A stretch of DNA of 64,000 nt. Source: Acidaminococcus fermentans DSM 20731. Lineage in GTDB: Bacteria > Bacillota > Negativicutes > Acidaminococcales > Acidaminococcaceae. How positions within the stretch are numbered: the first letter of the stretch is position 1; each line of letters begins with the position of its first letter. Below, piece by piece: positions 24,676-29,440 of the stretch. The translations under genes were made by a program, and so were the position numbers. The stretch is from the NCBI RefSeq assembly GCF_000025305.1, contig NC_013740.1, positions 1,116,001-1,180,000 on the forward strand, read 5' to 3'. The notes under the pieces were generated by a model that saw only the letters and a list, made by a program, of their open reading frames with translations, ran no database searches and was not told the origin of the DNA.

Positions 24676-25917
24676 TTATTTCTGTTTTTCCATGATCTGC
24701 CGGGCGGCGGCCATCACGGCGATCCGGCCGTGTTCAAAGGTCAGTCCGCCCTGCATGAAGACCTTGTAGGGGGCCCGCATGGGACCATCGGCGCTCAGTT
24801 CGATGGAGGCACCCTGGACGAAGGTGCCGGCAGCCATGATGATGTCATCCTGATACCCGGGCAGCGGAGAGGGTACGGGAGTCACATGGGCATCAATGGG
24901 AGAATGGGCCTGGATGGCTTCGCAGAAGGCACAGAGGTTTTCCGGCGTCTTCAGGGTAATGGTCTGGATGATGTCACTGCGCACATCATCGGGCAGCGGA
25001 GACACTTCAAAGCCCAGGGACTGGAACACGGAAGCGGCGAACAGGGACGTTTTCACCGCCTGGAGCGCCACATGGGGAGCCATAAAGAGTCCCTGATAGA
25101 ATTCCCGGGCCGTATCCCCCAGGGTGCAGCCCATTTCGCCGCCCAGACCGGGAGCGGTGAGTCGGTAGGAGGCCTGTTCCACCAGATCTTTTTTCCCGAC
25201 GATATAGCCGCCGGTGGGGGCAAAACCGCCGCCCAGATTCTTGATCAGAGAACCGGCCATCAGATCTGCGCCCACTTCCGTAGGTTCCTTTTCTTCGATG
25301 AATTCCCCGTAGCAGTTGTCCACAAAGCAGATGATGTCCGGACGGACCTGTTTCACCGCCTGGCAGATCTCCCCGATTTCCCCTACGGTCAGGGTCTTCC
25401 GTTTGCTGCTGTAGCCGCAGGACCGCTGGATATGGATCAGGCGGGTGCGGGGCGTGATGGCGGCCAGGAGGGCCGGGATGTCCGGATGATCCCCTTCCAT
25501 GGGGATTTCCTTGTAGGTGACGCCCAGATCCACCAGGGAACCGGGGGTCTTCACCGGATACCCGATGATGGTCTGCATGGTGTCATAGGGTTCCCCGGTG
25601 GCCCCGATCATTTCATCCCCGGGACGGAGATTCCCCAGCAGGGCCACAGCCAGGGCATGGGTGCCGGACACAAACTGGGACCGGACCAGGGCGGCTTCCG
25701 TCCTGAAGATATCGGCGTAGATCAGGTCCAGCTGATCCCGACCGGTATCGGAATAGCCGTAGCCGGTGGTGGGTTTCAGATAATAGTCGGCCACTTGGTA
25801 CTTGGCAAAGGCGTCCAGCACCTTTTTGGTGTTCACCAGGGCAGCGGCTTCATGGCTCTGGGCATGTCTGGCTACAGCGTCCAGGGCTTTCCCTTCGATT
25901 TCATCCCATTGTATCAT
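24676..25917 (-). CDS. ynbB: YnbB-like PLP protein (methionine gamma-lyase family, aluminium resistance protein)
   Basis: Cys/Met metabolism fold-type I PLP enzyme, 413 aa. QFVSGTHALAVALLGNLRPG near 79-98 and the PLP-lysine region GSLIKNLGGGFAPTGGYIVG near 220-239 mark the family (PF06838). CFVDNCYGEF holds the cofactor-binding Asp. Its biochemical role is unproven; the name aluminium resistance protein comes from early annotation. It lies downstream of hflX, an order kept in Bacillus (ynbA-ynbB), supporting orthology. GGAGG is 12 bases before the ATG, a little far. Confidence 0.85.
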   Translation of the reverse strand: MIQWDEIEGKALDAVARHAQSHEAAALVNTKKVLDAFAKYQVADYYLKPTTGYGYSDTGRDQLDLIYADIFRTEAALVRSQFVSGTHALAVALLGNLRPGDEMIGATGEPYDTMQTIIGYPVKTPGSLVDLGVTYKEIPMEGDHPDIPALLAAITPRTRLIHIQRSCGYSSKRKTLTVGEIGEICQAVKQVRPDIICFVDNCYGEFIEEKEPTEVGADLMAGSLIKNLGGGFAPTGGYIVGKKDLVEQASYRLTAPGLGGEMGCTLGDTAREFYQGLFMAPHVALQAVKTSLFAASVFQSLGFEVSPLPDDVRSDIIQTITLKTPENLCAFCEAIQAHSPIDAHVTPVPSPLPGYQDDIIMAAGTFVQGASIELSADGPMRAPYKVFMQGGLTFEHGRIAVMAAARQIMEKQK

Positions 25918-25971: not shown

Positions 25972-27786
25972 TCACGGCTGGATGTAGGGCGCCAGTCTGT
26001 CGGCCAGGGCCTTGTCCATTCTGGCCCGGATCAGGATGCCGGTTTCCCCGTATTCTTCCGAAAGCACCTGGGCTTCCTCGTGGAGCCGGGCGGCCAGCCG
26101 GCTTTCCCCGTAGGGAATGCACAGATCCGCTTCCACCCGGTCCTGGCCCAGGAGCCGGGCCAGGGTCTCCAGCAGTTCCGGGACCCCTTCTCCGGTACGG
26201 GCGGAGATGCACAGGGCGTTGTCTTCCTGTTCCAGACGACGGCGCAACCCTTCATGCTGGCTCAGCCGGTCCACTTTGTTGTAGACGGTCAGGATGGGTT
26301 TATCAGTGACACCCAGTTCCTGGAGCACCTGATAGACGGCTTCCGTCTGCTCCCGGGCCAGTTCATGGGAGCTGTCCACCACGTGGAGCAGCAGGTCCGC
26401 ATCCTTCACCACTTCCAGGGTGGATTTGAAGGCCGCCACCAGCTGATGGGGCAGCCGCTGGATGAACCCTACGGTGTCCGTCAGGGTGCAGCTGCTGCCG
26501 TCAGGCAGATCCAGCTGCCGGGTGGTGGGGTCCAGGGTGGCGAACAGCTGATCCTGGGCATAGATGTCCGAATGGGTCAGGGTATTCAGCAGGGTGCTCT
26601 TCCCGGCGTTGGTATACCCCACCAGGCACACCTGCTTCACTTCGTTCTTGTTCCGGGCCCGCTGTTGTTGTTTCCGGTTGCCCTTCATCCGGCGGATCTG
26701 GTCTTCCAGGAAGGCGATCCGATCCCGGATCCGCCGCCGGTCCACTTCCAGCTTGGTTTCCCCGGGTCCCCGGGTACCGATGCCGCCCCCTAGACGGGAG
26801 AGACTGGTGCCCTGGCCCATGATCCGGGGCAGCATGTACTGGAGCTGGGCCAGTTCCACCTGGAGTTTCCCTTCGCTGGTCCGGGCCCGTTTGGCGAAAA
26901 TATCCAGGATCAGCCCGGTCCGGTCGATGATCCGCACCCCCAGGGCCCGTTCCAGGTTCCGCTGCTGGGCCGGGGAGAGTTCATCGTCAAAAATGCACAG
27001 GTCGATGTCTTCCTGCTGGGCAAAGAGGGCCATTTCCTGGACCTTTCCCTTGCCGATGAAGAACACCGGGTCCGGTTTGGGCCGGGACTGGACGAATTTG
27101 CCCACCACTTCCGCACCGGCGGTTTCCGCCAGCTGGGCCAGTTCTTCCACCGAATCCTGGGCGCTCCAGCGGGAGGCCGTATCCCCCCAGGCCAGGGAAA
27201 TCAGCATGGCCCGTTCCGGCCCTTCCGCCAGATTGTGGTTCCGGGACCGTTTGGCCAGGATCTTTTCCACAGTGTGGACCACGTTCCCAAAAGGCATGGC
27301 AGCCACATCCTTCACCTTGAAGGGGCCGAATTCCTGGAGCACCGGCTGCTGGTCCTCATCCAGGTCGGTGATCATCCCGAAGCTGAGAAGAGGTTCGCTC
27401 TGGGGTGTTTCCCAGGCCATGGCAGCCATGGCATCGAACCGCAGGTCCCGGAGGGCGGAAAGATCCACCCCGCTGAGCCGGGGCGCCCCGGAAGGATGGG
27501 TATGGATGCAGGCCACCCCGCAAAGCCGGTTCTGGCTCCGGCGGGAATCCGTCCCGGGCAGTTCCACATGGCAGTCGCTGCCCACGGCAACGGCGGTCAC
27601 CCGTCCCTTCCGGTCGATGTAAAGGGAGATTTCCCGGTTGATGGCATCGGAAAGGTCCCGCAAAACAAGGGCCAACTCCTGACTGATCAGTTGGCCCTCG
27701 TCCGCTCTCAGCTCATAGATCCCTTCCAACTGGGTGAGGACCTGTTTTTTCAGGCCCTCCGTCTTTCCGTAGATCGTTTGAGTCAT
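25972..27786 (-). CDS. hflX: HflX GTPase with an N-terminal JAMM/RadC-like domain
   Basis: Ribosome-splitting GTPase of 604 aa, longer than the about 420-residue classical HflX. Residues 1-170 are an extra domain with [12 protein letters not shown] (Glu 52) and [20 protein letters not shown] (His 95, His 97, Ser 105, Asp 108), a full JAMM metalloprotease-type pattern. The HflX N-domain follows ([19 protein letters not shown] and [15 protein letters not shown]), then the coiled linker, then the G domain: [11 protein letters not shown] (about 391-401), DTVGFI (about 442-447) and NKVD (about 504-507). AGAGGAG precedes the ATG. It sits between the DEAD-box helicase gene and ynbB. Confidence 0.92.
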
Positions 27787-27804: not shown

Positions 27805-27810
27805 ATTATA
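27805..27810 (-). promoter_or_regulatory. Possible -10 for hflX inside the end of the helicase gene
   Basis: The minus-strand GGGTATAAT lies about 19 bases before the hflX ATG and overlaps the stop codon of the DEAD-box gene. Only a short leader would result, and no -35 is evident. Confidence 0.3.
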
Positions 27811-29440
27811 CCCGTGCTTTGGCAGGTTCCATGTTCACCCGGCAGCCCCGGATGGTGTTCCGGTGCATCACGGCCAGAACTTTTTCCGCATGTTCCATGG
27901 GAACTTCCACAAAGCTGAATTTGTCGTAGATGCTGATCCGGCCGATGCTCCGGGCAGGGATTTCCGCTTCGATGGCAATGCTCTGGACAATATCCCGTAC
28001 GGTGACCCGGCTGGAACGGCCGATGTTCACGAACAGACGGACCATCCCCGGTTTGGCACCGGTGTTGGCCAGGGCATCCGGCAGGCTTTCTTCCTCCGCC
28101 GGTTCTTCCAGGGCCTTGGCCCCTTCCTGCATGAACTTCAGGGCTGCCGCGGCGATATCCTGCACATCATAATCCTTTTCCAGGGTTTCCACAATGGGCA
28201 GATAATCCTGGTACCGATCCTGTTCCAGGATGGTCTGCATCTTGGAAACGATCTGTTCCCGCTGCCGTTCCAGTACGCTGGCGTCGGTGGGCAGGGTGCC
28301 CCGGATGATCTTGGTCTTGATGCTCCGTTCGATCAGTTTCAGCTGACGGAATTCCCGGGGAGTGATGAAGGTCAGGGCCACACCGGTGTTCCCGGCACGG
28401 CCGGTACGGCCGATCCGGTGCACGTAGCTTTCGCTGTCACTGGGCACATCGAAGTTCACCACATGGGTGATGTTGTCGATATCCAGCCCTCTGGCCGCCA
28501 CATCGGTAGCCACCAGGATATCCACCTGGCCGCTGCGGAACTTCTTCATCACCCGGTCCCGCTGGTTCTGGCTCAGGTCCCCGTGGAGGCCTTCCGCCTC
28601 GTAGCCCCGGGTGGCCAGGGCGATGACCAGTTCGTCCACACCCTTTTTGGTGCGGCAGAAGATGATCATCTTGCAGTCGTCGGTGGTGTCCAGGATCCGG
28701 CACAGGCCGTCCACTTTGTCCCGGGTTTCATAATAGTACTGGTCGATGGTGGGAGCCGTCACCACTTCCTTGTGGATGGCCACCACCTTGGGAGCCCGCA
28801 TGTATTTCTTGCTGATGCTCAGGATGGGCCGGGGCATGGTGGCGGAAAACAGCATGGTCTGCCGTTCCGGGGGAACGTTCTTGATGATGTTTTCCATATC
28901 GTCCACAAAGCCCATATCCAGCATTTCATCGGCTTCATCCAGCACCAGGAAGTTCACGTATTCCAGGTCGATGGTGCCCCGGCGGATATGGTCCAGCAGC
29001 CGGCCCGGAGTCCCGATGACCACCTGGATGCCCCGTTTCAGGCTGCGGATCTGCCGTTCGATGGGCTGGCCGCCGTACACCGGAAGTACCCGGATCCGTT
29101 TGGTCTTGCCGATCTTGCTGATTTCGTCCGCCACCTGGATGCACAGTTCCCGGGTGGGGCTCATGACCAGGGCCTGGATGTGCCGGTCCTTTTCATTGAT
29201 CTTCTGGATGATGGGGATCCCGAAAGCCGCGGTCTTGCCGGTACCGGTCTGGGCCTGGCCGATCAGGTCCTCCCCTTCCAGGGCCATGGGAATGGCGCCT
29301 TTCTGGATGGGGGACGGTTCTTCAAAGCCCATTTCCTTCAGGGCTGCCAGGATCTTCCGGTCCAGGTTCAGGTCTTCGAAAGACGTGATTTCCGGCTTGG
29401 ATTCCGCCGTTGTATTTTCCATTTTATTGATTTCTGTCAT
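27806..29440 (-). CDS. DEAD-box RNA helicase (DeaD/CsdA/CshA type) with C-terminal RNA-binding domain
   Basis: ATP-dependent RNA helicase of 544 aa for ribosome assembly and mRNA turnover. Motifs in order: Q motif ([10 protein letters not shown]), [35 protein letters not shown], then in lobe 2 [22 protein letters not shown] and [10 protein letters not shown]. After about residue 380 a helical dimerisation-like region is followed by a DbpA-type RRM fold (about 465-540). In this block it lies near RNase J, HflX and RimO, fitting an RNA-degradation and ribosome theme. Confidence 0.93.

Follow-up and report, generated by a model that had tools for sequence, protein, structure and literature searches.

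HflX is a widespread bacterial ribosome factor that has been tied to stress and to macrolide-lincosamide resistance, and the accessible text of one review presents the E. coli protein as an N-terminal domain (ND1 plus a helical part), a GTPase domain and a C-terminal domain only, without the ~190 extra N-terminal residues that are the subject of this analysis (PMC12493154). The same text describes an extension of 39-58 residues at this end of mycobacterial HflX, which it does not present as a domain or an enzyme, and mentions N-terminally extended HflX in several Clostridium and Paenibacillus species without naming a domain there (PMC12493154); a second paper, in the part available, excluded HflX from its analysis (PMC4342817). 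In a 64,000-nucleotide stretch of the Acidaminococcus fermentans DSM 20731 genome (the window), the additional residues of HflX form a JAMM (JAB1/MPN) fold with intact metal and catalytic residues.

A Glu/His/His/Ser/Asp set is carried by the JAMM proteins PfJAMM1, AfJAMM, AMSH/sst2 and Rpn11. These proteins, PfJAMM1 (5ld9) among them, share their fold with JAMM-HflX, but they either have ubiquitin-like proteins as substrates or serve as family models, whereas JAMM-HflX is tethered to a ribosome GTPase and the window genome yielded no partner of the ThiF/ThiS type. RadC (PF04002; 2qlc) has the JAMM fold and the motif HxHPSG...S..D in common with JAMM-HflX, and differs from it in having UPF0758_N in front and the sequence HNHP, where JAMM-HflX has HTHP, a basic loop and the fusion to HflX. 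We found no literature linking HflX to JAMM or JAB in a search that most subscription papers lay outside, and matches to 'JAMM' in the searchable text of the HflX literature were 'jamming', 'jammed' and the author 'Jammes'. An analysis of prokaryotic antecedents of ubiquitin mentions neither HflX nor RadC in the text searched (PMC1779556).

Organization of the gene and its neighbors

The open reading frame that the initial annotation had assigned to positions 25972-27786 is present there, on the minus strand, and has the following features and flanking genes (coordinates are those of the window).

27806..29440, minus strand: DEAD-box RNA helicase, DeaD type, directly upstream of hflX with 19 bases between
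25972..27786, minus strand: hflX with N-terminal JAMM domain, 604 amino acids
27217..27786, minus strand: whole N-terminal module, residues 1-190 (AF2 mean pLDDT 92.9)
27292..27696, minus strand: part aligning with JAMM/MPN structures, residues ~31-165 (VIA, most rows shown)
27631..27633, minus strand: E52, presumed general base, invariant in intact rows and aligned to the RadC Glu
27511..27555, minus strand: basic loop, residues 78-92, RR..RLSG.RC in most relatives
27463..27504, minus strand: H95-T-H97-P ... S105-x-x-D108, presumed metal ligands and oxyanion serine
27226..27291, minus strand: helix linking the JAMM core to HflX ND1, residues 166-187 (AF2 prediction)
26893..27156, minus strand: HflX N-terminal domain, GTP-bdg_N, residues 211-298 (Pfam)
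26653..26889, minus strand: HflX middle/helical region, GTP-bdg_M, residues 300-378 (Pfam)
26275..26634, minus strand: GTPase domain, MMR_HSR1, residues 385-504 (Pfam and GTPase motifs)
26002..26244, minus strand: HflX_C domain, residues 515-595 (Pfam)
24676..25917, minus strand: PLP enzyme, Met_gamma_lyase PF06838, directly downstream of hflX

The N-terminal segment had been described as joined to a complete HflX, and this holds: the protein scores 488.9 bits with the HflX equivalog TIGR03156 (cut-off 216.75), and the GTPase motifs and the ND1, helical and C-terminal domains of the core (GTP-bdg_N, GTP-bdg_M, MMR_HSR1 and HflX_C) are all present in its C-terminal two thirds. With NF008280 (ribosome rescue GTPase HflX), presumably a narrower model of proteobacterial HflX, it scores 388.3 bits, under the equivalog cut-off of 441. 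From its membership in the HflX family, JAMM-HflX would be expected to split 70S ribosomes. The window genome (2,329,769 bases in one contig, 99.96% complete) gave eight matches in the class search described below, in which hflX stood at E 0 and the next match listed, at 1.2e-11, was limited to the GTPase part, so hflX is taken to be single copy there. Its core domains and GTPase motifs are those of bacterial HflX (TIGR03156). A canonical RadC is encoded separately, elsewhere in the same genome.

A rimO/miaB-type gene, cinA, deaD, hflX and the gene for the PLP enzyme share the minus strand, and deaD and hflX are likely to form one transcript. The five neighbors that were scanned comprise the DeaD-type helicase, cinA, the rimO/miaB-type radical SAM protein and Met_gamma_lyase, all on the strand of hflX, plus LexA. 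A Met_gamma_lyase homolog was found in 79 of 110 related loci, 105 of which are long enough to show it, and by a stricter check it lies directly downstream of hflX in 78.

The N-terminal domain has a JAMM fold

An AF2 model of residues 1-190, built from the alignment of 123 relatives that also supplied the domain profile, has a mean pLDDT of 92.9 and a pTM of 0.88; a single-sequence AF2 model of the full protein reached a pLDDT of 37.8 and was discarded. When VIA was run on 998 of the 1000 chains returned by Foldseek, JAMM/MPN proteins made up 49 of the 50 rows shown, some of them assigned from the complex named in the title (proteasome, signalosome, BRISC, EMC, spliceosome) and the MPN subunit that such a complex contains, and the sole other row was DddB, a deaminase. 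The matches include PfJAMM1 (5ld9; Z 7.8, rmsd 3.5-3.8 over 111-112), RadC of C. tepidum (2qlc; Z 7.0, rmsd 3.4 over 100), Rpn11 (Z 6.7), AfJAMM (Z 6.3) and AMSH (Z 5.7), with identities of 4-18%. The model thus has the JAMM alpha/beta fold, with scores that are modest (Z at most 7.8) and a family that is consistent; because a Z under 8 may reflect a common arrangement, weight is placed on fold, motif and family agreeing with one another. Foldseek itself gave two chains only at E<=0.001, one titled CSN5 and the other a plant complex chain that aligned like it and that we take to be CSN5 as well. TM-scores on the query did not exceed 0.37, unrelated folds appeared from E 0.018 (CodY, for example), and superpositions among the JAMM rows were poor (rmsd 6.4-21 A).

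Profile comparisons point in the same direction. The sequence alone falls under the Pfam gathering cut-offs, scoring 16.2 bits (whole protein) or 18.4 bits (residues 1-175) with Prok-JAB (PF14464; cut-off 25) and 12.5 bits (residues 1-175) with RadC (PF04002; cut-off 22.1), so the domain is classed with a remote branch of the superfamily and not as a Prok-JAB member. Residues 1-175 matched no family in NCBIfam or PHROGs, and a single-sequence search of the PDB gave chance-like matches only (best E 0.076, a protochlorophyllide reductase). Searched with the domain profile, PDB sequences placed the AMSH-like sst2 at the top (E 0.0011); of 20 distinct sequences at E<=10, all but one were AMSH, STAMBP, sst2 or Prp8. 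Profile-profile comparison with three RadC proteins gave 95.5% and aligned E52 with the Glu of RadC and HTHP with its HNHP. Off target, the domain profile matched nothing in the genomes at E<=0.001 except two RadC proteins. By profile comparison, the N-terminal domain is related to RadC, yet it is not a RadC. The superfamily pattern of a Glu plus HxH(P)x(6-8)SxxD is matched by E52, H95, H97, S105 and D108, the five residues proposed from the sequence at the outset, which lie where they were placed and in JAMM spacing; the modeling that had been suggested, with RadC and AMSH among the structural matches, likewise upholds the JAMM fold.

Conservation and distribution of the active site

Relatives were collected in three ways. 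From 150 genomes of the window's class, 110 loci in 109 genomes were fetched without use of the HTHP pattern; of the remaining 41 genomes, 38 had no HflX-like match (a hand count, best E >1e-15) and three had short or fragmentary ones. The 38 genomes without HflX belong mostly to the family codes f6, f14, f27 and f30, and a few of them are incomplete. The domain is present in 108 of the 110 loci (L285 and L286 lack it), and by aligned column each of these 108 has both His, the Ser and the Asp; the Glu is present in all 107 where it is visible, L281 being cut at a contig end. The motif reads HTHP in 107 loci and HSHP in one. One genome (G005) has two JAMM-HflX copies (L027, L228), each with E, H, H, S and D. 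Within the window's class, neither of the findings that had been named as fatal to a JAMM assignment, a model without the fold or an alignment without conservation of His 95, His 97 and Asp 108, arose, and the site is intact as predicted.

A second sample took 348 genomes around a center (G153) that was picked for having the domain, and covers the phylum of that genome (Bacillota, by its named members); the analysis as a whole sampled this phylum and Fusobacteriota. The domain profile matched 68 of these genomes at E<=0.001, two weakly and through RadC only; the other 66 have one match each, in every case in an HflX frame (one cut by a contig end), and 280 have none. The expectation that longer HflX forms, and so the fusion, occur in other Firmicutes is borne out by these 66 genomes, and the absence of the domain from most of the sample indicates that HflX as such does not need it. 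Twenty HflX proteins without the domain from this sample begin at profile position 175 or later.

In the wider sample the five-residue site is less uniform, so the conservation seen in all class loci does not extend to every bearer: the site is intact in 53 of the 66 genomes, and in 13, which fall into two groups, HxH is lost and the domain kept. Among the degenerate rows, six lack HxH, five of them also the Glu, and seven lack HxH with the Glu retained. Catalysis is therefore dispensable in those genomes. When all long rows are taken together, E, HxH, S and D occur jointly in 181 of 194 and the other 13 lack HxH, a count biased toward HTHP because 79 of the 194 came from a search for that pattern.

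That third search, a pattern scan of genome contigs, yielded 463 relatives; the best 80, all HTHP by design, were kept and include Acidaminococcus, Phascolarctobacterium, Pelosinus, Sporomusa, Mitsuokella, Desulfoscipio and Clostridia. The fusion is also found in two Fusobacterium records labeled plasmid, each with a 600-amino acid HflX, which carry HTHPGGNPHLSSVD.

Other variants of HflX were seen among the loci. In L199 (980-3088), an HflX is fused C-terminally to a dihydrouridine synthase that scores 319.5 bits with Pfam Dus; L193, L200 and L201 read like L199, the one on which the Pfam scan was run, and the HflX of all four is without the JAMM domain. The HflX frames of L271, L278 and L279 (626-671 amino acids) matched the query in one piece only to residue 512 or 495, which suggests an insert or a replacement in their C-terminal part.

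Possible roles of the JAMM domain

The reading that we prefer, which we hold to have about an even chance of being correct, is that the domain is a zinc (iso)peptidase which HflX carries to the ribosome as it splits and which also has a docking role. In the accessible text of the review cited above, the mycobacterial extension makes contact with uL16 and H38 and extends as far as the H69-H71 junction (PMC12493154). Since that extension lies at the same end of HflX, the JAMM domain, which would be tethered to ND1 by the predicted helix of residues 166-187, is expected by analogy with this different segment to sit on the 50S intersubunit face when HflX splits the 70S ribosome. Docking would probably occur through the conserved basic loop (residues 78-92), which carries a net positive charge in 112 of 116 intact rows, the whole domain averaging -4.9. 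This loop overlaps the stretch of lowest confidence in the AF2 model and immediately precedes the HxH strand. In other JAMM enzymes, the position just before the HxH strand holds a substrate insert.

So placed, the domain could have two jobs. Its added bulk would work against the joining of the subunits. With an intact site, it would also hydrolyze a peptide or isopeptide bond in some protein that splitting makes accessible, candidates being the tail of a ribosomal protein, a bound factor and what remains of a nascent chain. As ribosomes with peptidyl-tRNA are not bound by HflX, according to the accessible part of the same review, the JAMM domain would act during or after splitting and not on peptidyl-tRNA (PMC12493154).

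The case for hydrolysis comes from the residues that are conserved. The catalytic Glu and Ser of JAMM enzymes are not metal ligands, and in the intact rows of the alignment both are as invariant as the ligands, a pattern that favors catalysis. The suggestion, made when the locus was first annotated, of a working peptidase or isopeptidase would therefore have the conservation of Glu and Ser on its side and the 13 losses of HxH among 66 bearers against it. A broader proposal, which we make tentatively and judge somewhat more apt to fail than to hold, is that HflX in about a fifth of the Bacillota sample and in Fusobacterium has two functions, as a ribosome-splitting GTPase and as a zinc peptidase that edits a protein on the split ribosome, comparable to Rpn11 on the proteasome but without ubiquitin, and has become a pseudo-enzyme in some lineages. 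If this is true, a proteolytic step, of which we found no report, is part of how many Firmicutes and Fusobacterium rescue their ribosomes. Intact, HxH-less and domain-free HflX proteins provide a natural series that makes the protease question directly testable.

It is also possible, although we consider it unlikely, that the domain is a purely structural docking or wedge module whose intact site persists mainly because it adds stability or holds a structural zinc. MPN folds are structural in other large RNA machines, as in the JAB domain of Prp8 and in eIF3 f/h. A structural role would account for retention of the domain without HxH in two groups that stand apart on a quick tree, and for a basic loop that is still net positive in five of the six rows of the first group. 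Against docking through this loop, it is negative in the other row of that group (L179), and its motif is gone in L189, the sole row of the second group in that alignment. The mycobacterial extension is a precedent as well, as it drives rRNA disordering and is not described as an enzyme in the text available (PMC12493154). Such a role explains poorly why intact rows do not vary at the Glu and the Ser, two positions outside the set of metal ligands, when the median pairwise identity of the domain is 31% (78 rows, degenerate ones included).

That metal occupancy of the JAMM site tunes splitting or GTP hydrolysis by HflX, for instance under zinc starvation, is improbable: the metal ligands are invariant in intact rows, as a zinc sensor would predict, but Glu52 and Ser105 are equally so, and none of the five neighbors scanned belongs to a zinc-uptake or zinc-regulator family. 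We give still less credence to a deconjugase for a ubiquitin-like modifier. The structural relatives do include proteins that process such modifiers (PfJAMM1 with SAMP2, BubCD and Rpn11), and ThiF scores above its cut-off in nine of ten JAMM-HflX genomes tested; the exception is the window genome itself, where the best scores for ThiF (24.0 bits, cut-off 28.1) and ThiS/MoaD (21.6 bits, cut-off 22.5), the two families searched, are both under threshold and come from a malic enzyme and a TGS-containing RelA/SpoT protein. A ubiquitin-like substrate is therefore unlikely in this organism, and no ubiquitin-like protein or E1 is found among the five neighbors scanned.

Self-processing, in which the JAMM domain would clip the linker and free a short HflX, has a slimmer chance again; domain-free HflX is common in relatives (20 were fetched) and the residues after ~178 are variable, but residues 166-187 are a predicted helix in which the column table reveals no conserved cleavage site. 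That the motif arose by chance in an ordinary N-terminal extension, as the single-sequence Pfam score beneath the gathering cut-off might suggest, is refuted by the fold, the profile matches and the conservation, and can be set aside as next to impossible.

Evolutionary history of the fusion

On the quick tree, which was built from 104 HflX cores, presence of the domain needs 10 changes, of which the well-supported branches force only two. When a single gain of the fusion was tried by holding all domain bearers as one clade, that clade was rejected (p-AU 2.8e-5), on a tree in which deep forks are weak and long branches meet. Across 78 rows, the identities of the N-terminal domain and of the core correlate (rho 0.47; maximum of 0.29 in 500 permutations). 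These patterns fit an old fusion at a conserved hflX locus that was followed by repeated loss or decay, although repeated loss, gain and transfer are indistinguishable on the quick tree and the fusion may have been gained repeatedly.

A mobile origin was considered and rejected: phages gave no match to the domain, and the only mobile records are the two Fusobacterium plasmids and one viral contig, which has a 607-amino acid JAMM-HflX. The hflX and shikimate kinase genes are normally chromosomal. Both are present on L287 (NZ_CP077186.1), a circular record of 218 kb labeled as a Fusobacterium animalis plasmid, and hflX is present on L288, a record of 2.1 Mb labeled plasmid, so that these two are either chromids or mislabeled.
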